A stretch of 64,000 bases of DNA from an uncultured Pelagibacteraceae bacterium. Lineage in GTDB: Bacteria > Pseudomonadota > Alphaproteobacteria > Pelagibacterales > Pelagibacteraceae. The DNA is taken from NCBI GenBank assembly GCA_902628495.1, contig CACONH010000001.1:1-64000 (forward strand). Reading direction: 5' to 3'. Numbering within the stretch: the first letter of the stretch is position 1; the number at the start of each line of letters is the position of its first letter. This document shows, piece by piece, positions 45,877-57,947 of the stretch. The translations under genes were made by a program, and so were the position numbers. The notes beneath the pieces were generated by a model. The model searched no databases. It was not told the origin of the DNA and saw nothing but the letters and a program-made list of their open reading frames with translations.

Positions 45877-47961
<2,085 letters not shown>

Positions 47962-48094: not shown

Positions 48095-48184
48095 TGGCGG
48101 AGAGAGTGGGATTCGAACCCACGAAAGAGTTGCCCCTTAACACGCTTTCCAAGCGTGCGCCTTAAACCGCTCGGCCATCTCTCC
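48095..48184 (-). tRNA. tRNA-Ser (anticodon GGA)
   Basis: A 90-base gene with class II long variable arm. It starts GGAGAGA and ends TCTCTCCGCCA, so the acceptor stem pairs seven bases and the CCA end is encoded. The anticodon loop, CTTGGAA flanked by an ACGC/GCGT stem, gives GGA, reading UCC and UCU serine codons. The GTTCGAATC T-loop is intact. Six T follow the gene directly on the minus strand and may end transcription. It lies 15 bases from the first sugar-island gene. Confidence 0.97.
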
Positions 48185-48199
48185 ATGTATATAAAAATA

Positions 48200-49075
48200 T
48201 TATTTAAACATATTTCTAAATTTACTTTTATATCTATTTAATGTTCTTTTTTGTCTATCTAAAAACCTTAAAAAAATATTTTTCTTTTTATCTCTTTTTG
48301 CAATAATAGGAAATTCTTTCAAATGCAAAAATGTTCTAACTTTATCTTCGTTCAACGCCCATTCTGACTCGTAAGCTGAAAAGAATTTACAATTTTCTAA
48401 CTTTGCCAGTATGGACAAAACACTTTGAGAATGCCTATGGCTAATAAAACCATCTCTTGAAGGCAATTTAAATTTTGTTTCATCATCGTCAATAAGATCA
48501 AACCTATTCCGAGTTATATTAAAGTGATTTTGCATAATTTTAATTGCAACAGGGCTTTTTCTAAGAAAAAATGAACCACCCCAAACTTGAGGGGTATTTG
48601 TTATTTTTTGATTATTTTGCACATCAAAATATTTGAAGAGGTCTTCTTTTGTATATTGATATTCTAGATAATTTGGGAAAGTATAATTTTTAAATTTTTT
48701 ATTATCAAGACTTTTATATTCAAATCCTAAAAAACCTTTTTCATAATTTGATACAAATTCAAAATATTCTTTTAATCTATTTTTACCATTTAAATTAAAA
48801 TGACATCCAACATCACACCAGTGATATATGTCACCATCTGCCATTTTTGACAAAATTGATTGATGAATATAGGTTTGCCATACCCAATAGCCATAACCTC
48901 TTACTTTTCCCAAATTAATTAATTCTTTAACATAATTTTTGAAATCTTCATTTAGGTCATCATATGTATATAAATCTATTGAATTATATAAATTCATTTT
49001 TTTTGCTTGCTCTTTAAATCTTTCAGCTGATCGCTTGAGATCTGGACTATAAAAAGAGGCGAGATATATTTTCAC
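48200..49075 (-). CDS. Glycosyltransferase-like protein of the sugar island
   Basis: A 291-residue protein. Near residue 60 it has GKVRGYGYWVWQTYIHQSIL, then KMADGDIYHWCDVGCHFNLNG. Such a YGYW-W-K/Q block with DGDI--CD-GC occurs in capsule and lipopolysaccharide proteins that resemble GT-A glycosyltransferases, the D-x-G being a candidate metal/nucleotide site. A later block WGGSFFLRKSPVAIKIM supports this. There is no signal peptide; the protein is likely cytoplasmic. The exact sugar is unknown. It is the first island gene after the tRNA, 6 bases from the acetyltransferase gene. Confidence 0.72.
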   Translation of the reverse strand: MKIYLASFYSPDLKRSAERFKEQAKKMNLYNSIDLYTYDDLNEDFKNYVKELINLGKVRGYGYWVWQTYIHQSILSKMADGDIYHWCDVGCHFNLNGKNRLKEYFEFVSNYEKGFLGFEYKSLDNKKFKNYTFPNYLEYQYTKEDLFKYFDVQNNQKITNTPQVWGGSFFLRKSPVAIKIMQNHFNITRNRFDLIDDDETKFKLPSRDGFISHRHSQSVLSILAKLENCKFFSAYESEWALNEDKVRTFLHLKEFPIIAKRDKKKNIFLRFLDRQKRTLNRYKSKFRNMFK

Positions 49076-49080
49076 TTAAT

Positions 49081-49764
49081 CTAAAGAAATTTAGTAATTA
49101 CTTTGTGTAAATTTTTTTTCAAAAATTTTGCTGGATTACCTGCAACAATTTGATTTTTTTTAACATTTTTTGTAACCACTGATCCAGCTCCAATGAAAGA
49201 TCCTTCTTCAATAGTTAATCCAGGTAGAATCGTCGCATTAATTCCTACAGTGACAAAATTTTTAATCTTAACATTCCCACCTAATACTGCGCCTGGCATA
49301 ATATGAACGCCTGATCCTATTTGACAATCATGTTCTATGAGGGATGCAGTATTTAAGATAGTATAATCTCCAATTTTGCTGTTTTCATTTATAATTACTC
49401 CTGGAAATATTTGAACTCCTTTTCCCAAATTTTTTTTATCAGCTATTTGAGTATATTTAGAAATAATTCTTAAAGGCTTTAATTTTTTTTTTTCTAATTT
49501 ATTAGAGATAAACAATCTGGCTTTACCATAATGATTACCAATACAGGTGATAAAGTAATGTGAATCTTTCAAAAAATTTTTAAGATCTGATCTATTATTT
49601 GAAAATTTTACGGATGAATCAAATTGTGGTCTACTCAGACCTGGGTCAAATAAATATTTAATTTTTAGGTTCTTATTTAAACCAATTAATTTATGTTTTT
49701 TTATGAAGTTGTAAATAATACCTGCTTTAAATTTAGCTCCCCAAAAAAAAATGTTTTTTTTCAT
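49081..49764 (-). CDS. Sugar O/N-acyltransferase, NeuD-like hexapeptide-repeat protein
   Basis: The 227-residue protein has an N-terminal domain (residues 1-90, starting MKKNIFFWGAKFKAGIIYN) like the PglD/NeuD nucleotide-binding domain. It then has left-handed beta-helix repeats: IFPGVIINENSKIGDYTILNT, LIEHDCQIGSGVHIMPGAVLGG and VTVGINATILPGLTIEEGSFIGAGS. His at DCQ-adjacent EHDCQIG is the likely catalytic base. These enzymes acetylate amino sugars. I chose the ATG at 49764; an in-frame start at 49890 would overlap the divergent epimerase gene. The gap to that gene is 49 bases. Confidence 0.85.
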   Translation of the reverse strand: MKKNIFFWGAKFKAGIIYNFIKKHKLIGLNKNLKIKYLFDPGLSRPQFDSSVKFSNNRSDLKNFLKDSHYFITCIGNHYGKARLFISNKLEKKKLKPLRIISKYTQIADKKNLGKGVQIFPGVIINENSKIGDYTILNTASLIEHDCQIGSGVHIMPGAVLGGNVKIKNFVTVGINATILPGLTIEEGSFIGAGSVVTKNVKKNQIVAGNPAKFLKKNLHKVITKFL

Positions 49765-49813
49765 TAAATAATAGTATACCGAATTAGTAATAATATTGTT
49801 TAAATTTGTTTCA

Positions 49814-50791
49814 ATGAAAAAAATTCTTATCTTAGGTTCTGAGGGTTTTTTGGGATCTGTTTTGGTTCCATATATACTTAAAAACAACAATTTCTATATA
49901 GTTGGAATTGACAAATGTTTTTTTGGAAAAAATAACAAGAAAGTAAAAAATTTTAAATTTTATAAAAAAGATTACAATTTACTTAATACTAATTTTTTTA
50001 AAAAATTCGATTATATTATTGATTTGGTAAACATTTCAAATGATCCCGCATCTGAATTAAATCAAAAATTTACATATTTAACTAATTTCTCAAATAAAGT
50101 TAAATTGTATAAAAAAATTAAAAATGTGAGTAAAATTTCTAGATATATTTATATGTCATCATGCTCTGTTTATGGAAATAACAAAAAGTTAATCAATGAA
50201 AATTCTTTACCAAAACCAATATCACTATATTCCAAACTATGTTTAAAATATGAAAATTATTTAAGATCTGAAAATAAAATTCCTTTCACAATTTTGAGGC
50301 TTGGAACATTATATGGTTGGTCTCCAAGAATGAGATATGATATTGCGATAAATAAAATTATTAGAGACGTTGTATTTTTGAAAAAAATTGAAATTTTGGG
50401 AGGAACCCAGTTAAGATTTTTTTGTTATAACTTATTTGCATGTAAAATTATAAATAAATTAATTGACGAAAAACTAAAAAAAACAAAAAACAAGATATTT
50501 AATATTGGAAATTTTAATACAAATATCGTCCAACTCTCAAAAAAAATACTAGCGTTAACAAAGGTTAAAGATGTAAATGTTTTTCACGAAACAAATACGA
50601 TAGATAAAAGATCTTATGAAGTTTCAATAAAATCATCAAAAAAATTAATTAATAATTTAAATTTTAGTAAATTTACAAACAACTCTATTATTGAGACATT
50701 TAATAAAATTAAAAAAGACAAACAGCCATTTTCTGAAAAAAAAATAACTTTATCGGTGTACAAGCAGTATTTAAAAAAAAATGAGATATGA
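49814..50791 (+). CDS. NAD-dependent epimerase/dehydratase-like protein with altered catalytic lysine
   Basis: A 325-residue extended short-chain dehydrogenase. The nucleotide loop is GSEGFLG near residues 8-14, and the serine block is YMSSCSVYG. In the family the active site is Tyr-x-x-x-Lys; here the segment is PISLYSKLCLKYE, so Tyr139 is present but position +4 is Cys143. The rest of the register, including the following glutamate, matches the family. It is followed by an aminotransferase with a 4-base overlap, so it may make or modify a keto-sugar substrate. The start at 49814 fits the family; 49796 is an alternative. Confidence 0.8.
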   Translation: MKKILILGSEGFLGSVLVPYILKNNNFYIVGIDKCFFGKNNKKVKNFKFYKKDYNLLNTNFFKKFDYIIDLVNISNDPASELNQKFTYLTNFSNKVKLYKKIKNVSKISRYIYMSSCSVYGNNKKLINENSLPKPISLYSKLCLKYENYLRSENKIPFTILRLGTLYGWSPRMRYDIAINKIIRDVVFLKKIEILGGTQLRFFCYNLFACKIINKLIDEKLKKTKNKIFNIGNFNTNIVQLSKKILALTKVKDVNVFHETNTIDKRSYEVSIKSSKKLINNLNFSKFTNNSIIETFNKIKKDKQPFSEKKITLSVYKQYLKKNEI

Positions 50792-51909
50792 TCAAGTTTT
50801 ACAAGCATAATCTAAATAAAAACAAAAACTATCTAACTAAAACACTTGGTGGTCAATATCTAACTTCAGGTCCAATTTGTGAGGAAGTAGAGAGTATTTT
50901 AAAAAAAAAATTTGGTAAAAAATCTGCTTTTCTAACAAATTCGTGGACTAATGCAGCTATTTCAATTCTATTGGCTTTGAAAGTTAAAAAAGACGATGAA
51001 ATAATTATTCCAGCATGCACATTTGTGGCATGTGCAAATATCATTGAAATCGTTGGGGGAAAGGTTGTATTTGCTGACATTGATCCAAAAACCAAGTTAA
51101 TGGATATAGACGATTGCTTAAAAAAAATTACAAATAAAACAAAGGCTATTATGCCAGTTCATCTTTATGGGAATTTATTTCCAACATTTAATCTAAAAAA
51201 AAAAATTAGAAAAAACATATATATAATTGAGGATAGTGCTCATGCTTTTTCAGGGGAATACAATAATAAACCTCTTGGATTTTATGCTGATTTTTTAATT
51301 TTTTCTTTTTATGCAACAAAAAGTATTACGTGTGGCGAAGGGGGTGCAATTTTGTCAAATAATAAACAATTAATGGAAAATATTAGATCCATCGCGAATA
51401 ACGGTATGTCCAAACCAGCCTTCAAAAGGTTTGAAAATAATAAATACAAACCTTGGGATGTTAAAAGTTTTGGATTCAAAGCAAACTTAAGTGATATAAA
51501 TGCGTCGTTATTAAAAGATCAAATACTAAATTACAAAAAATTATCAAACACAAAGAAAACCATCTATATCAAACTTAAAAAAAAGTTGTCTAATTTGAAA
51601 CAAATAAAGTTTCCAAGTAACTTAAAGAATAATAACAGAGATTATTATTTATTTCCAATTGGAGTAAACAGAAAATTAAGAAATGAGTTAATTGAGCATT
51701 TAACTTCAAAGAAGATTTTTGTAACAGTAAATTTTAAATCTATTACTGATTTAAGCTTTTACAAAAAAAAATATAAAGTAAAAAATTGTGTAAATAGCAT
51801 AAAATGGGGAGAGGAGACTTTAAGTTTACCTTTTCATGCAAAACTAAAAGTGGGAGAAATTAACAAGATTTATAAAGAAATAAATTCTTTTTTTGAAAAA
51901 AAAATTTAA
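50788..51909 (+). CDS. DegT/DnrJ/EryC1/StrS-type sugar aminotransferase
   Basis: The 373-residue PLP enzyme transfers an amino group from glutamate to a nucleotide-linked keto-sugar. The PLP-binding Lys178 is in FSFYATKSITCGEGGAI, and EDSAHAFSGEY (148-158) holds the ring-contacting aspartate. TFVACANIIEIVGGKVVFADID is typical. It overlaps the upstream epimerase by 4 bases and lies near the acetyltransferase, forming a plausible amino-sugar set (modify, aminate, acetylate). Its stop overlaps the convergent TylF-type gene through TTAA. Confidence 0.9.
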   Translation: MIKFYKHNLNKNKNYLTKTLGGQYLTSGPICEEVESILKKKFGKKSAFLTNSWTNAAISILLALKVKKDDEIIIPACTFVACANIIEIVGGKVVFADIDPKTKLMDIDDCLKKITNKTKAIMPVHLYGNLFPTFNLKKKIRKNIYIIEDSAHAFSGEYNNKPLGFYADFLIFSFYATKSITCGEGGAILSNNKQLMENIRSIANNGMSKPAFKRFENNKYKPWDVKSFGFKANLSDINASLLKDQILNYKKLSNTKKTIYIKLKKKLSNLKQIKFPSNLKNNNRDYYLFPIGVNRKLRNELIEHLTSKKIFVTVNFKSITDLSFYKKKYKVKNCVNSIKWGEETLSLPFHAKLKVGEINKIYKEINSFFEKKI

Positions 51910-52688
51910 TTTTTAATGATTAATCTTGACGTGTAATCTATCCTAATTAACCAAATTTTTTTATTCTTAAAATATTCATCAACAGCCTTTCTGCAACCTG
52001 TATGATGTCCATAGTCATCGATTATTAATACCCCTCTTTTGGTTAGTTTAGGAAAAAGAACTTTTAATTCATTCAATGTAGATTCGTAATAATCCGTATC
52101 TAACCTCATAAATGAAATCTTATCTGGTAAATTTTTTTTGAGTTTTAAAACTTTTTTTGTATCTCCTTTAATCAATTTAGGTAGATTTTTAAAACCATTA
52201 TTTAATAAATTCTCTTTTACATCATCAATATTAAGATAAAGTTCAGTATTTTTATTTTCATTAGAATCAATTTGATCTCTTTTTTTTTTACCTAAATAAC
52301 TATCTTTTTTAAGATTTATTTTTGGAGCACCTTCAAAGGTATCGTAACCCCAGATTTTTTTTTTTAGTTTAAGATACTTGAGAGTATAGTTTATTAGGAT
52401 TAATCCTCCACCATGAAAAATTCCTGTTTCGACAATATCACCCCTTATTTTATTTTTTTTTATATATTTTAATGATTGAATTATTGCCCATCTATTTGGA
52501 ATTGATGCATTGATAAATTTTTCAGTTTTATCTATAATTTTTTTTTCTGCAGAATTCATTTCAGCTACTGAGTTATAATGCCTATCAAGCCATGAATTTT
52601 TTCTTTTGATTTCTAAATTAAAAATACCAAAAAAAAATTTGACAACCTTTTTAAATTTAGATTGTTTTATTTCATAATTATTAAGCAT
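51906..52688 (-). CDS. TylF/MycF-type O-methyltransferase
   Basis: A 260-residue protein of the macrocin O-methyltransferase family, SAM- and metal-dependent enzymes that methylate sugar hydroxyls in antibiotics and polysaccharides. Key segments are RGDIVETGIFHGGGLILIN (SAM loop), FMRLDTDYYESTLNELKVLFP and LIIDDYGHHTGCRKAVDEYF (metal-binding aspartates). In this setting it probably methylates a surface glycan. It lies 7 bases after galE on the same strand. The convergent aminotransferase overlaps it by 4 bases. Confidence 0.88.
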   Translation of the reverse strand: MLNNYEIKQSKFKKVVKFFFGIFNLEIKRKNSWLDRHYNSVAEMNSAEKKIIDKTEKFINASIPNRWAIIQSLKYIKKNKIRGDIVETGIFHGGGLILINYTLKYLKLKKKIWGYDTFEGAPKINLKKDSYLGKKKRDQIDSNENKNTELYLNIDDVKENLLNNGFKNLPKLIKGDTKKVLKLKKNLPDKISFMRLDTDYYESTLNELKVLFPKLTKRGVLIIDDYGHHTGCRKAVDEYFKNKKIWLIRIDYTSRLIIKN

Positions 52689-52695
52689 ATATATT

Positions 52696-53706
52696 CTAAT
52701 ATTTAATTTTTTTTTTTTTAATTTTTAATAATTTCTTTTCCCAGTTAATAGCGCTTATCAAAATATATTTAATATTATTAAATTTAGGCTTCCAATTTAA
52801 ATATTTTTTTAATTTATATGTGTTAGAGTAAATTTTAGCAACATCACCAGGTCTTCGATTTAAGTAAATAATTTCAACGTTTTTTACAATTTTTTTGAAA
52901 ATTTTAATAATATCTAAAACGGAGTAGCCTTTTCCATAACCACAGTTAAGAATTATCGGGTTTTTTTCTTCAGATATTTTTTTTAGCACTTTCATATGTA
53001 TGTCTGCCAAATCTGAAACATGAATATAATCTCTGATACACGTTCCATCTTTAGTTTTATAATTGTTTCCGTAAATATTAATTAATGGTTTTTTTTTTGT
53101 AGCTTGTATCGATAAATTTTTAACAAGATGGCCGTGTGAGGTTTCAATTTCTCCAATTTTACCTGACATACTTGCGCCAGCAACATTAAAATATCTTAAT
53201 ATTGCGTAATTATATTTATTAATTTTTGAGTATTTTTTGATTAAATTTTCACTTTTAAACTTTGTGAAAGCGTAATAACTTTTGGGTTTAAGTTTTTGTT
53301 TTTCATTTACAGATCCCTCAGCGTTTCCATAGACAGAACAGGATGATGAAAAAACTAAATTTTTGACAAATGAATTTTTACAAGCTTTAAGAAGATTTAA
53401 TGTTCCCCCAACATTATTGACAAAATATTTTCTCTTTTTTTTTTCAGCTTCAGATATATTTAAATATGCAGCTAAATGTATTACAGAAATTATGTTATAA
53501 TCTTTTATAGTCTGCGATAACTTCTTAAAGTCTTTAATATCACCTTTAATAAATTTAGCTTTTTTATTAATTAATTTTTCATAACCTGTAACAAGATTAT
53601 CATAAATAAAAACCTTCCAATTTTTATTAATTAGCAATTCAGAAACGTGGCTACCTATGTAGCCAGCACCACCGGTAATTAAAACATTTAAATTAGTATT
53701 TTTCAT
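52696..53706 (-). CDS. galE: UDP-glucose 4-epimerase
   Basis: GalE interconverts UDP-glucose and UDP-galactose with bound NAD. The 336-residue protein has GGAGYIGS (12-19), the SSSCSVYG serine block and catalytic YAFTK (Tyr145, Lys149), all intact. Additional GalE-like motifs are TKDGTCIRDYIHVSDLADIH and LNCGYGKGYSV. It is a full-length enzyme, unlike the altered epimerase at 49814. It overlaps the DUF4422 gene by 14 bases. Substrate could also be the N-acetyl form, since related enzymes are hard to separate by sequence. Confidence 0.88.
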   Translation of the reverse strand: MKNTNLNVLITGGAGYIGSHVSELLINKNWKVFIYDNLVTGYEKLINKKAKFIKGDIKDFKKLSQTIKDYNIISVIHLAAYLNISEAEKKKRKYFVNNVGGTLNLLKACKNSFVKNLVFSSSCSVYGNAEGSVNEKQKLKPKSYYAFTKFKSENLIKKYSKINKYNYAILRYFNVAGASMSGKIGEIETSHGHLVKNLSIQATKKKPLINIYGNNYKTKDGTCIRDYIHVSDLADIHMKVLKKISEEKNPIILNCGYGKGYSVLDIIKIFKKIVKNVEIIYLNRRPGDVAKIYSNTYKLKKYLNWKPKFNNIKYILISAINWEKKLLKIKKKKIKY

Positions 53707-54496
53707 CTATAAATACCCATGGTAGTTCTTTATAATGAGTATATTTTTTAAACCAAAAAGATAGGTAACGTTCTGCTAGATAGGCGTAAATTCTAGTTGT
53801 ATCATAACCCTTCAAGTTATTAAAACCGAATATATTTTCACATCTCTCTAACCAAGGAAAAAGAGTATCAAACCACTTTTTTGCAACATGGGGTTTAGCA
53901 ATAAACATTATATGAGGATTGAAATAGTCTCTTTGATTAACATAATCTTGAAATTCATATTTATCTTTTTCATCGACTTGGTTAATTGCTTTTCCCAAAT
54001 TGTTATATCCATGATGCATGTCAAAATGTAAATTAATATTTTGTTTATATTTTTTAAAAAAAATCAATGGGTCTTTTAATAAATTTTTCCAGCCCCTTTT
54101 TATCAATTTAATTTTTTTCACATTTGAGACTTTTATGGATTTGCATATAAAACTTTCATAGCCGTGGTCATTTGAGTCAATCATTGTTAAGATATTACTG
54201 TTCAAATTTTCAATACTTACACTGCTTCGATCTGCTTCCGATTTTATCCAAAACCTTCTTTTCTGACAAAAGCCTATCCAATCTTTTTTACAGTCTTTTA
54301 ATTTATTTTTCCAAATCCAATATTGAAAGGCGAGCTCGGAATAGTTTTTTTCTTTATAAAAAATGTTGTCAAAAGTTTTTGGAATTATATATTTATCATT
54401 AAATTCCTCTTTGCCCACTCCACCTAAATAATAAGGCAATTTTTCCAAATAATTTAGTTTTTTATTAGTAACACAATACATATCAATGTTGCTCAT
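53693..54496 (-). CDS. DUF4422 protein, probable glycosyltransferase
   Basis: A 267-residue protein that fits DUF4422, a family found in polysaccharide clusters and related to GT-A glycosyltransferases. The N-terminus has MSNIDMYCVTNKKLNYLEKLPYYLGGVG, followed by NYSELAFQYWIWKNKLKDCKKDWIGFCQKRRFW, and later YLAERYLSFWFKKYTHY near the C-terminus. No signal peptide is seen. It overlaps galE by 14 bases and is divergent from the FkbM-type gene 91 bases away. Donor and acceptor are unknown. Confidence 0.78.
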   Translation of the reverse strand: MSNIDMYCVTNKKLNYLEKLPYYLGGVGKEEFNDKYIIPKTFDNIFYKEKNYSELAFQYWIWKNKLKDCKKDWIGFCQKRRFWIKSEADRSSVSIENLNSNILTMIDSNDHGYESFICKSIKVSNVKKIKLIKRGWKNLLKDPLIFFKKYKQNINLHFDMHHGYNNLGKAINQVDEKDKYEFQDYVNQRDYFNPHIMFIAKPHVAKKWFDTLFPWLERCENIFGFNNLKGYDTTRIYAYLAERYLSFWFKKYTHYKELPWVFIDEKY

Positions 54497-54587
54497 AACT
54501 TAATTAACCCCTTATAATCTAATTGCACCTATTTTAAAGATCAAAAAAGTATATAATTAAATCTTCAAACAAGAAATTTGAAAAATT

Positions 54588-55331
54588 ATGAAAAATAAAC
54601 TCTTTAACAAAATAGCAGGATGGTTTGGTTACAAAATAATAGAGAAAAAACTCCATAAGAATAATAGATTAATTGATAGATTTTCTACATTAAAAACAGA
54701 GTCATTAATATCAACAATGTTCAAAAAAAATTTGATATCTAAAATAGTTCAAATTGGTGCAAATGATGGTGAAAGATTTGATGTATTAAAAAAATTCCTC
54801 GGAAGACAAAATATTAAAGCATTATTAGTTGAACCGATAAATGAGTCATTTCAAAAATTAAAACTGAAATATTCAGATTCAGAAAATATTTTTTTAGAAA
54901 ACTCTGCAATCTCTGTAAAAAATCTACATAATGAAATGTATCTATTAAATCCTAACTTTGCAAAATTATATGATGATCATGTTCCAGGCATTTCATCCTT
55001 TAATAAAAGTCATTTATTAAAACATGGAGTAAAAAATAAGCACATAATTAAAAAAAAGATAAATAGTATTAGTGTTAAAAATCTTCTTGAAAAACATGAT
55101 TTTTTAGATTTAGACCTTCTTTATATAGATGCTGAAGGTTACGATGGTGAAATATTATTAGATTTTTTTAATTTTACTAACAAGAAACCAATAGTAATTT
55201 TTGAGTACATACATATTAGTCATAATACTTTTTGTAAACTTTTAGAAATATTTAACAAAAATGGTTACAAAATTTTAAGAGCAGACGAAAATTTATTAGT
55301 AATTAACAAAGAAATAACTTTAGAACTATGA
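54588..55331 (+). CDS. FkbM family methyltransferase
   Basis: The 247-residue protein has the FkbM pattern: a SAM loop IVQIGANDGERFDVLK (about residues 53-68), then ALLVEPINESFQKLK, and the later catalytic block LYIDAEGYDGEILLDF. FkbM-type enzymes O-methylate sugars in surface polysaccharides and antibiotics. It is the only plus-strand gene between the DUF4422 and GT17 genes. Its 3' end overlaps the convergent GT17 gene by 6 bases. Substrate cannot be predicted. Confidence 0.85.
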   Translation: MKNKLFNKIAGWFGYKIIEKKLHKNNRLIDRFSTLKTESLISTMFKKNLISKIVQIGANDGERFDVLKKFLGRQNIKALLVEPINESFQKLKLKYSDSENIFLENSAISVKNLHNEMYLLNPNFAKLYDDHVPGISSFNKSHLLKHGVKNKHIIKKKINSISVKNLLEKHDFLDLDLLYIDAEGYDGEILLDFFNFTNKKPIVIFEYIHISHNTFCKLLEIFNKNGYKILRADENLLVINKEITLEL

Positions 55332-56138
55332 CTCAATCCATTCTAAATATTTGGATTTATTTGTGACTAGTTCATTCGGGTAAGAGTCATTAATATCTGT
55401 TTTGACAAATTCGTCGTTCCTCCCAATAATATCAATTTTTTTTTCTATTTTTCTTTTTATTTCGTTGATATTTAAATGTTTTTCGTCAATTTTTTCTTTA
55501 AAGTTTACTGGGTCATTTGTCTCACATAAGTTTTTGTATTTATAAAGCAGATTTTCAGGTGTTTTAAGATTACAAAAATGCCAACCACCATCATCAATAA
55601 TATTGTTCAATCTAAATTTATCAATTCTCCAGAAGGGTCTTTTTTTAAATTTCAAATTTCTTAACCACTGAGGTGATTTGAGATCTTTATAATTACATAT
55701 TCTACTTCCATACCAAAAAGGATTATTTTTGCTTTGTAGATTTAATTTATAATAAAAGTTTCTCTGTTTAAATACAGCATATTTCATACTTTTTTTAAAT
55801 TTAATTATTTTTTTTGGATTTGGAATTTCATCAAGATCTGAAATAATAATTATATCCTCTGGATTTGCAGATACTAATCCTTTTAAAATAGAATTTCTTT
55901 GATGATTTTCTCTTAAATAAGGGTCGTTACCATCTGGCAAGTCAGTCACTGGTACATAAATTATTTTATCTTTAAAGTTTTTAAATCTATTTAAATCAAA
56001 TCGTAATTTTTTTGAATTATTTTGCCAAGTTTTATTACCCTCTACAATCACAAAGTAATCAACAAATTTATTTAATACATTTAGACGTAAATCTAATAAT
56101 AAATCTTCATCCCAATACGAAAAGCAATCATAGATCAT
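55326..56138 (-). CDS. Glycosyltransferase family 17 protein
   Basis: The 270-residue protein resembles GT17, the family of beta-1,4-N-acetylglucosaminyltransferase III. It begins MIYDCFSYWDEDLLLDLRLNVLNKFVDYFVIVEGNKTWQN and contains the metal-binding DLD (Asp101, Asp103) in IIIISDLDEIPNP. It is probably cytoplasmic, acting on a polysaccharide intermediate. Eukaryotic GT17 enzymes modify N-glycans, but bacterial homologues occur in polysaccharide clusters. The start abuts the stop of lepA on the same strand, so housekeeping transcripts may read into it. Confidence 0.87.
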   Translation of the reverse strand: MIYDCFSYWDEDLLLDLRLNVLNKFVDYFVIVEGNKTWQNNSKKLRFDLNRFKNFKDKIIYVPVTDLPDGNDPYLRENHQRNSILKGLVSANPEDIIIISDLDEIPNPKKIIKFKKSMKYAVFKQRNFYYKLNLQSKNNPFWYGSRICNYKDLKSPQWLRNLKFKKRPFWRIDKFRLNNIIDDGGWHFCNLKTPENLLYKYKNLCETNDPVNFKEKIDEKHLNINEIKRKIEKKIDIIGRNDEFVKTDINDSYPNELVTNKSKYLEWIES

Positions 56139-57947
56139 CTATCGTTCCTTATTAATTTTTAACACTCCGATGAAAGCTTCTTGGGGGATTTCTACTCTTC
56201 CAAATTGTTTCGCTCTGGCCTTACCTTTTTTTTGCTTTTCCAACAGTTTTCTTTTTCTATCCATGGCACCTCCACCATGTATTTTTGTAAGTACATCTTT
56301 TTTAAAACCTTTAATTGTTTCTCTAGCAATAATCTTGCCACCTATTGCAGCTTGTATAGGTATCATAAAATTATGCCTAGGGATTAAATCTTTTAATTTT
56401 TCACAAACTTCTCTTCCTATTGTTTGAGCAAAATCTTTATGAACCATCATTGCTAAAGCATCGACAGGTTCTGAATTTACTAATATTCCAAGTTTGACCA
56501 AATCTCCTTCTCTATGTCCAATTATTTCATAATCAAAACTAGCATATCCACTAGTCATAGATTTCAATCGATCATTAAAATCAAAAACTACCTCATTCAA
56601 TGGTATTTCATAATTTATTACAGCTCTATTGCCTGAATAATTTAAGTTTTTTTGAATTCCTCTTTTTCCCTGACATAATTTCATAATTGAACCTAAGTAT
56701 TGGTCAGGACTAATAATAGTAGCTTTGATCCACGGCTCCTCTATCATTTTAATTAAAGTTGGGTCTGGTAAGCTTGAGGGGTTCTGAAGATCAATAGTTT
56801 TTCCATTATTTAGATGTACTTTGTAAACTACTCCAGGTGTAGTAGTTAACAAATTTATATCGAATTCTCTTTCTAATCTTTCAGTAATTATTTCTAAATG
56901 TAATAAGCCTAAAAAACCACACCTAAAACCTAAGCCTAAAGCAGATGATGACTCCGGATCGTATGAAAAACTTGCGTCGTTTAATTTTAATTTAGCGAGA
57001 CCGTCCTTTAATTTTTGATATTCAGAACTATCTACGGGAAATAAACCACAAAATACAACCGGTTTACTTGGTTTAAAACCAGGTAAAGCATCTTTGATAG
57101 GATTTAATGAGTCACAAATAGTATCTCCAACTTTGGTTTCGGATAAGTTTTTTATTCCAGTTATGATAAATCCTATTTCTCCAGAATTAAGCTCATCAAT
57201 ATCTATAGGTTTTGGTGTAAACACTCCAACCTTTTCAACTGTATATTCTTTATTTGATGACATCATTTTTATTTTCATATTTTTTTTGATTTTGCCATCA
57301 ATGACTCTGACCAAAATGATTACTCCTAGATAGGAGTCATACCAACTATCTACTAGCAAGCATTTTAGGTTTTCATCTTTATTTCCTTTTGGAGATGGTA
57401 AAACAGATATGATCTGTTCTAATATTTCTCCGATGCCCTCTCCAGTTTTACCAGAGCAAGGCACTGAGTTTGAGGTTTCGATACCAATAACATCTTCGAT
57501 TTGTTTTCTTGTTCTCTCAAGGTCTGATGCGGGTAAATCTATTTTGTTTAAAATCGGGATAATTTCATGATTTATATCTAAAGCCTGATATACATTTGCT
57601 AAAGTTTGAGCTTCAACACCTTGGGTGCTATCCACAATTAATATAGATCCCTCACAAGCATAAAGAGATCTGCTCACTTCATAACTAAAATCCACATGCC
57701 CAGGAGTATCAATTATATTTAGTATGTAATTCTTGCCATCTTTAGATTTATATTTAAGTTTTACTGTTTGAGCTTTAATAGTTATTCCTCTTTCTCTCTC
57801 AATATCCATTGAGTCTAAAACTTGTTCTTTCATCTCACGCTCAGTTAATCCTCCACATAACTGAATTATTCTATCTGCAATCGTTGACTTTCCGTGATCA
57901 ATGTGTGCAATGATTGCAAAGTTTCTAATGTTATCAAGAGTAGACAT
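56139..57947 (-). CDS. lepA: Elongation factor 4 (LepA)
   Basis: LepA is a translational GTPase that acts on stalled or initiating ribosomes. The 602-residue protein has the G1 motif AHIDHGKS (14-21), then [15 protein letters not shown] (G3) and [10 protein letters not shown] (G4). The LepA-specific C-terminus ends [14 protein letters not shown]. It abuts pheT upstream (57948) and GT17 downstream (56138) with no spacer at either end. The full set of domains is present. No anomalies were seen. Confidence 0.97.

Follow-up and report, generated by a model that had tools for sequence, protein, structure and literature searches.

How do nine sugar-modification genes of mixed strand come to lie between lepA and gyrB in a genome of the Pelagibacteraceae (SAR11), and what do their products act on? 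The island in question lies between a tRNA-Ser gene and lepA (48095-56138, tRNA included) in a window of 64,000 nucleotides that opens contig 1 (CACONH010000001.1) of a 1.0-Mb genome in 17 contigs, whose closest lepA relatives come from uncultured Pelagibacteraceae. We propose, with a probability of about 0.75, that this is a replacement-type hypervariable locus, whose glycan-decorating cassettes are exchanged by homologous recombination through the conserved anchor genes and decorate a surface glycan built elsewhere. The anchors are conserved, the content between them turns over, some sites are empty, and synonymous divergence is highest at the borders.

Turnover of gene content between lepA and gyrB

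Loci for comparison were taken from the best 80 of 577 lepA relatives, with flanks of up to 10 kb, and 28 stretches were added from genomes picked for completeness or closeness. Removal of three duplicates and one stretch without lepA left 105 loci, window included. Complete loci, which span lepA, tRNA-Ser and gyrB, number 84, again with the window; the other 21 are incomplete or have no gyrB nearby.

The anchor order lepA - tRNA-Ser - gyrB is kept in 84/84 complete loci, so that all of them occupy the same chromosomal position, and within this frame we found 57 distinct arrangements. The interval beyond the tRNA measures from 171 to 11,801 bp (median 3,162). On the lepA side of the tRNA it is at least 400 bp long in 69 loci and shorter than 50 bp in 15; on the gyrB side it exceeds 400 bp in 23. 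Twelve loci hold no open reading frame (ORF) of at least 90 aa on either side. Taken together, the 105 loci carry 355 ORFs in 100 families, 53 of them singletons, and the commonest cargo is GT17 (57/105 loci), followed by DUF4422 (29/105). As a control, 9.5 kb upstream of lepA were treated in the same terms: 419 ORFs fell into only 9 families, 6 of which are present in all 58 loci, while the interval in the 49 complete loci among those 58 holds 157 ORFs in 53 families. The window's own nine-gene arrangement recurs in 0 of the 83 other complete loci. A preliminary description of this DNA had called the island variable, a claim that the same nine genes in the same order in relatives would contradict; turnover across the 84 loci strongly supports it.

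Relatives with a similar backbone make the point most directly. Amino acid identity of the window to L005 and L006 is 94% for pheT and 97-98% for both lepA and gyrB, and their cargo homologues are 35-72% identical or absent. The GT17 protein of the window is nearer to that of L017 (79%, with pheT at 76%) than to that of L003 (74%, with pheT at 95%). In L101 the lepA side is empty and the gyrB side holds one ORF distantly like FkbM-family cargo (32%). The features of the window's locus are as follows, from gyrB to lepA.

45877..47937, minus strand: gyrB, conserved right-hand anchor of the hotspot
48095..48184, minus strand: tRNA-Ser(GGA), 3′ end towards gyrB, 5′ end towards the island
48200..49075, minus strand: glycosyltransferase of predicted GT-A fold, no Pfam family; cargo family 8, 10/105 loci
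49081..49764, minus strand: NeuD/PglB/VioB-type sugar N-acetyltransferase; start probably near 49764, though a TTG extends the ORF to 49890
49814..50791, plus strand: short-chain dehydrogenase/reductase (SDR) 'epimerase'; catalytic Lys of YxxxK changed to Cys (YSKLC)
50788..51909, plus strand: DegT/DnrJ/EryC1/StrS sugar aminotransferase, overlapping the SDR gene
51906..52688, minus strand: TylF-type O-methyltransferase; family in no other locus among the 105
52696..53706, minus strand: GalE-type UDP-glucose 4-epimerase; family 17, 5/105 loci
53693..54496, minus strand: DUF4422 putative glycosyltransferase; family 1, 29/105 loci
54588..55331, plus strand: FkbM-type methyltransferase; family 9, 9/105 loci
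55326..56138, minus strand: GT17 glycosyltransferase, beginning 1 base past the lepA stop codon; commonest cargo family
56139..57947, minus strand: lepA, conserved left-hand anchor (in transcription order)

ORF and tRNA positions, with six genes on the minus strand and three on the plus strand, agree with the nine mixed-strand genes reported earlier, and the families then assigned agree with the Pfam and NCBIfam matches to NAD-dependent epimerase/dehydratase, DegT, TylF, DUF4422, FkbM and GT17. The acetyltransferase matches TIGR03570 (NeuD/PglB/VioB type) at 169.3 bits (cut-off 160.8) and GalE matches TIGR01179 at 347 bits (cut-off 262). One correction concerns gene starts: the acetyltransferase probably begins at an ATG near 49764 and the epimerase near 49814, so the two genes would be divergent, not overlapping. 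The GC content of the island is 24.8%, compared with 30.5% in gyrB, 32.6% in lepA and 27.9% over the window.

Parts of the cassette recur in other company. The window shares with L103, whose backbone is distant (lepA 87%), an ordered core of GT17, FkbM, DUF4422, DegT, SDR, acetyltransferase and the GT-A protein; L087 has most of this core, and L087 and L103 each carry different inserted genes. L007 and L085 have another cassette type in common. When seven relatives were searched whole, window-like DegT genes were found in two (G016 and G084), both times at the lepA-gyrB locus, and the other five have distant DegT genes only (at most 37% identity). At loci L109-L114, from four other genera of the family, lepA and tRNA-Ser still form an adjacent pair with variable cargo between them, and gyrB was not found within the fetched stretch.

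Border divergence and the part played by tRNA-Ser

To follow divergence towards the borders we used synonymous identity, that is, third-position identity at codons encoding the same amino acid. Successive values between the window and L006 are 89 and 82% in pheT, 80, 69, 54 and 60% in lepA, and 54, 75, 78, 81, 87 and 85% in gyrB. Over L005, L006 and L007 identity to the window amounts to 82-89% in pheT; it is down to 54-73% in the latter half of lepA and to 48-62% where gyrB begins, with 48-60% in the lowest border bins. Within gyrB, the first ~115 codons show low identity to these nearest relatives, and values rise towards the 3′ end, where it is back to 85% for L005 and L006, but only 68% for L007.

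The same trend separates pairs of genomes by arrangement. Among 289 pairs with similar pheT, those of the same arrangement (67 pairs) go from 89.7 to 86.6 at the lepA end, and those of different arrangement (222 pairs) from 86.7 to 75.2. In a group of 22 close genomes the mean drop from pheT to the lepA end is 2.3 points for same-arrangement pairs (65) and 8.4 points for different-arrangement pairs (166). Border-raised synonymous divergence has been reported for replacement islands and read as homologous recombination (PMC4033161). The divergence seen here, clear on the lepA side and weaker at gyrB in the 22-genome group, is apparently a footprint of replacement by the same process.

Several observations weigh against the proposed reading, and those that concern exchange belong here. 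The contrast on the gyrB side is weak in the 22-genome group (1.8 vs 3.4 points), and at the lepA end 5/65 same-arrangement pairs also lose more than 10 points, compared with 61/166 pairs of different arrangement. These comparisons are made between genome pairs that are not independent, and outside the 22-genome group the different-arrangement pairs are more diverged overall. Finally, four relatives show tRNA-directed insertion, and homologous recombination is therefore not the sole route.

Two other histories of the island were weighed. A stable, lineage-specific operon passed on by vertical inheritance would account for the similar set, with shared genes in the same order, on the distant backbone of L103. 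The nearest relatives, however, lack most of the set though their anchors are 94-98% identical, and in the closest group each of seven genomes has an arrangement of its own; we reject vertical inheritance on these grounds and regard it as next to impossible. The second history enlarges on a remark in the preliminary description, that tRNA ends often mark insertion sites of islands: an integrative element would have inserted site-specifically at the tRNA-Ser 3′ end and afterwards lost its integrase. tRNA-Ser does sit within the locus, and L006, L015, L087 and L059 have partial copies of it on their gyrB side. The cargo of the window, however, adjoins the 5′ end of the tRNA, not its 3′ end; neither border of the island yielded a repeat of the tRNA 3′ end, and no second tRNA-Ser copy was found in the interval; and no integrase is present among the nine proteins by Pfam/NCBIfam, as had been stated earlier. 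Where the lepA side is empty, the tRNA begins 2-7 bp past the lepA stop, and high-identity partial copies occur in 2/300 genus genomes among the matches listed. Insertion at the 3′ end by an element that has since lost its integrase is rejected for the window island on its orientation and the absent repeat, and is highly improbable. Since synonymous divergence is raised at both borders, homologous recombination is favoured over tRNA insertion for the window, and the earlier insertion idea is given up for this island.

A search for repeats of the tRNA 3′ end, which had been suggested as a check, thus failed in the window and succeeded on the gyrB side of four relatives. The remnant covers nt 11-90 of tRNA-Ser at 100% identity in L006 and nt 9-90 at 97.6% in L015; the match has an E-value of 1e-4 in L087 and is weak in L059 (E 0.027). 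All four belong to the 23 complete loci whose tRNA-gyrB distance exceeds 400 bp, and none to the other 61 (hypergeometric 0.005). About 160-190 bp separate the remnant from gyrB in L006, L087 and L059, which is close to the native spacing; it looks as though the inserted DNA had brought a new tRNA end with it and pushed the former one away. L015 has further cargo between remnant and gyrB. L087 and L059 carry the same two inserted genes, so the four remnants may represent three events. For the relatives' cargo, the absence of an integrase applies to the top 25 of 82 Pfam families.

In L006 (L006:15191-16558) a 287-aa protein with a T5orf172/MUG113 domain, which we take to be a GIY-YIG-like nuclease, is encoded between the intact tRNA-Ser and the identical 80-nt remnant. 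It was found in 1/300 genus genomes at 100% identity, presumably the same genome. A phage origin of this insert was considered and dropped, as no match was obtained in phage records or viral contigs.

Putative products of the cassettes

A tally of Pfam families in 82 cargo proteins, mostly family representatives, is led by epimerase/dehydratases (10), methyltransferases and glycosyltransferases within the top 25 of 82 families. For the window, we suppose that the SDR, the DegT aminotransferase and the NeuD-type acetyltransferase would together yield an N-acetylated amino sugar, and GalE a galactose-type donor. The GT17, DUF4422 and GT-A proteins may transfer such sugars and the TylF and FkbM enzymes methylate them, the target probably being lipopolysaccharide or some other surface glycan, with a backbone supplied by other loci. 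Homologous recombination through lepA/pheT at one end and through tRNA-Ser/gyrB at the opposite end would let cells of close backbone exchange different small cassettes of such soluble decorating enzymes, and gain and loss of single genes would turn the cassettes into mosaics.

Two of the nine proteins needed closer inspection. The product of 48200-49075 has no Pfam or NCBIfam match. Its predicted model (mean pLDDT 87) has glycosyltransferases as best Foldseek matches, and a second structural alignment, to a PBCV-1 glycosyltransferase, gave Z 15.8 and an rmsd of 2.8 Å over 183 residues; alpha-1,3-galactosyltransferase and blood-group synthase structures rank just after it. Judged by this model the protein has a GT-A fold, and the label 'GT-A-like' given to it at first sight holds. 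The SDR (49814-50791) had been described as altered, rightly so: YSKLC replaces the YxxxK motif of classical extended SDRs in 3/3 family members found. The DegT aminotransferase gene comes next in each of the three. A predicted structure of the SDR was too poor to be used (mean pLDDT 55).

By Pfam/NCBIfam profiles and hydropathy, the nine proteins include no initiating sugar-phosphate transferase, flippase, polymerase, ligase or ABC exporter. The 23S gene is at C1:372409 and the 5S gene at C4:10115, with the island at C1:48-56 kb. After the 23S gene come O-chain-like genes (methyltransferases, a sulfatase, NeuB), and before the 5S gene a member of the initiating-transferase family PF00953, a GDP-mannose dehydratase and an epimerase. 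The missing initiating transferase, flippase and polymerase, together with these separate O-chain-like regions, favour decoration of a glycan built elsewhere. In this same genome (L120:3801-10229 and L119:2410-19292) 5S is thus on another contig than 23S, and it comes after a short O-chain-like run that follows rpoD directly. This 5S/rpoD arrangement and the 23S-linked region on C1 resemble the relocated O-chain cluster reported for Ib.4 (PMC11898729).

What other product could such a set serve? A complete second locus for a surface polysaccharide, capsule or O-antigen, is suggested by the nucleotide-sugar enzymes, three glycosyltransferases and an acetyltransferase found together, as well as by a GC content below that of the flanks, as reported for O-chain clusters (PMC11898729). 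The key assembly functions are nevertheless missing among the nine proteins, the island has 8 kb compared with the 10-90 kb given for O-chain clusters in the same paper, and many relatives hold zero or one gene at the locus, so that we judge a complete locus quite unlikely. Somewhat less improbable, though still doubtful, is that the enzymes glycosylate a protein (a pilin or autotransporter, for instance) or a small molecule in place of lipopolysaccharide. Enzymes of the NeuD/PglD-like and DegT types take part in the glycosylation of proteins elsewhere among bacteria, a pilin glycosylation protein is one of the relatives of known structure, and TylF and FkbM owe their family names to macrolide pathways. 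The locus has no oligosaccharyltransferase, carrier protein or substrate gene, however, and its content is too variable for one dedicated product.

Decoration of a surface glycan built elsewhere has its own difficulties, which add to those raised above. Hydropathy gives no clear membrane segment in the nine proteins save the hydrophobic cores of two Rossmann/PLP enzymes, and FkbM, TylF and DegT enzymes are also found in secondary metabolism. The SDR lacks its catalytic Lys, which makes the amino-sugar route uncertain. In some relatives the cassettes encode proteins for which 8-12 membrane helices are predicted (families 28, 64, 85 and 93), and 'decoration only' may therefore not hold for all cassettes. 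Such large proteins, possible membrane glycosyltransferases or polymerases, occur in L007, L085, L003, L087 and L103; a Pfam scan of three, from L007, L008 and L003, gave no match.

Known hypervariable regions and meaning for SAR11

The island is of a kind already known, the replacement flexible genomic island (Lopez-Perez et al. 2014, PMC4033161), and the lepA-gyrB site is a new member of it: the position is constant, similar functions are provided by different genes, and border divergence is raised. The islands described there are large O-chain, S-layer and flagellum clusters, whereas the cargo between lepA and gyrB consists of single genes or small cassettes and can be missing altogether.

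Within SAR11 the closest likeness is to the O-chain cluster OBC/HVR2, which is also hypervariable, low in GC, rich in glycosyltransferase and sugar-nucleotide genes, fixed in position and replaced between strains (PMC11898729, PMC7318151, PMC2217521). That cluster lies between 23S and 5S and spans 10-90 kb, whereas the lepA-gyrB locus surrounds tRNA-Ser and spans 0-12 kb; the window island, at ~8 kb, has neither the flanks nor the size of OBC/HVR2. Four hypervariable regions, HVR1-HVR4, are known hotspots of gene content in SAR11, HVR4 being flanked by tRNA genes (Wilhelm et al. 2007, PMC2217521). Their gene ranges (0042-0054, 0523-0568, 1162-1173 and 1214-1221, PMC2217521) appear, with gene numbers matched to positions by estimate, to contain neither lepA nor gyrB. 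We do not claim that the 166-kb unoccupied hypervariable site of HTCC1062 (PMC1821060) is the same locus, since lepA is at 438 kb in the presumed HTCC1062 genome and the coordinates thus disagree. Outside SAR11, fGI-1 of Methylophilaceae is a replacement island bordered by tRNA-Ser(gga), but it belongs to another bacterial group, its other border is tRNA-Arg and a tmRNA lies in its middle (PMC10872708). Among openly licensed PMC literature we found no paper that names a lepA-gyrB island in SAR11.

The two sugar loci may also differ in tempo. O-chain cluster types are reported to change slowly and to be long preserved, and the change is argued to be too slow for an arms race (PMC11898729), whereas the lepA-gyrB locus differs between near-identical backbones. 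It is tempting, though tentative, to split SAR11 surface-sugar variation between a slow O-chain cluster and a fast lepA-tRNA-Ser-gyrB locus with occasional tRNA-Ser-directed insertions. The contrast was probed with two proteins only: in seven genomes, a single clear relative (57%) was found for a NeuB-cupin protein and no relative for the second probe. The source genome thus differs from its neighbours in the O-chain region as well. A second GT17 gene, adjoining a GFO/IDH/MocA gene, lies elsewhere in the genome at L121:3799-5683; the same family pair (+4 +0) is present in several hotspot cassettes, at about 38-42% identity at best.

SAR11 are among the most abundant bacteria of the ocean and keep up their surface diversity under phage pressure. 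Our results suggest that the locus shapes a portion of the outer sugar coat that changes fast. One step further, the diversity of that coat may be selected by phages, and phage or grazer recognition, as the preliminary description proposed, might change with it. The locus is a compact marker, since one long read can span both anchors, and it may escape recruitment plots on a reference with a nearly empty site, such as L101. A second, often-swapped glycan locus would be a concrete place to seek short-term change, and if the split into a slow and a fast locus is true, the latter could follow phage pressure on short time scales.

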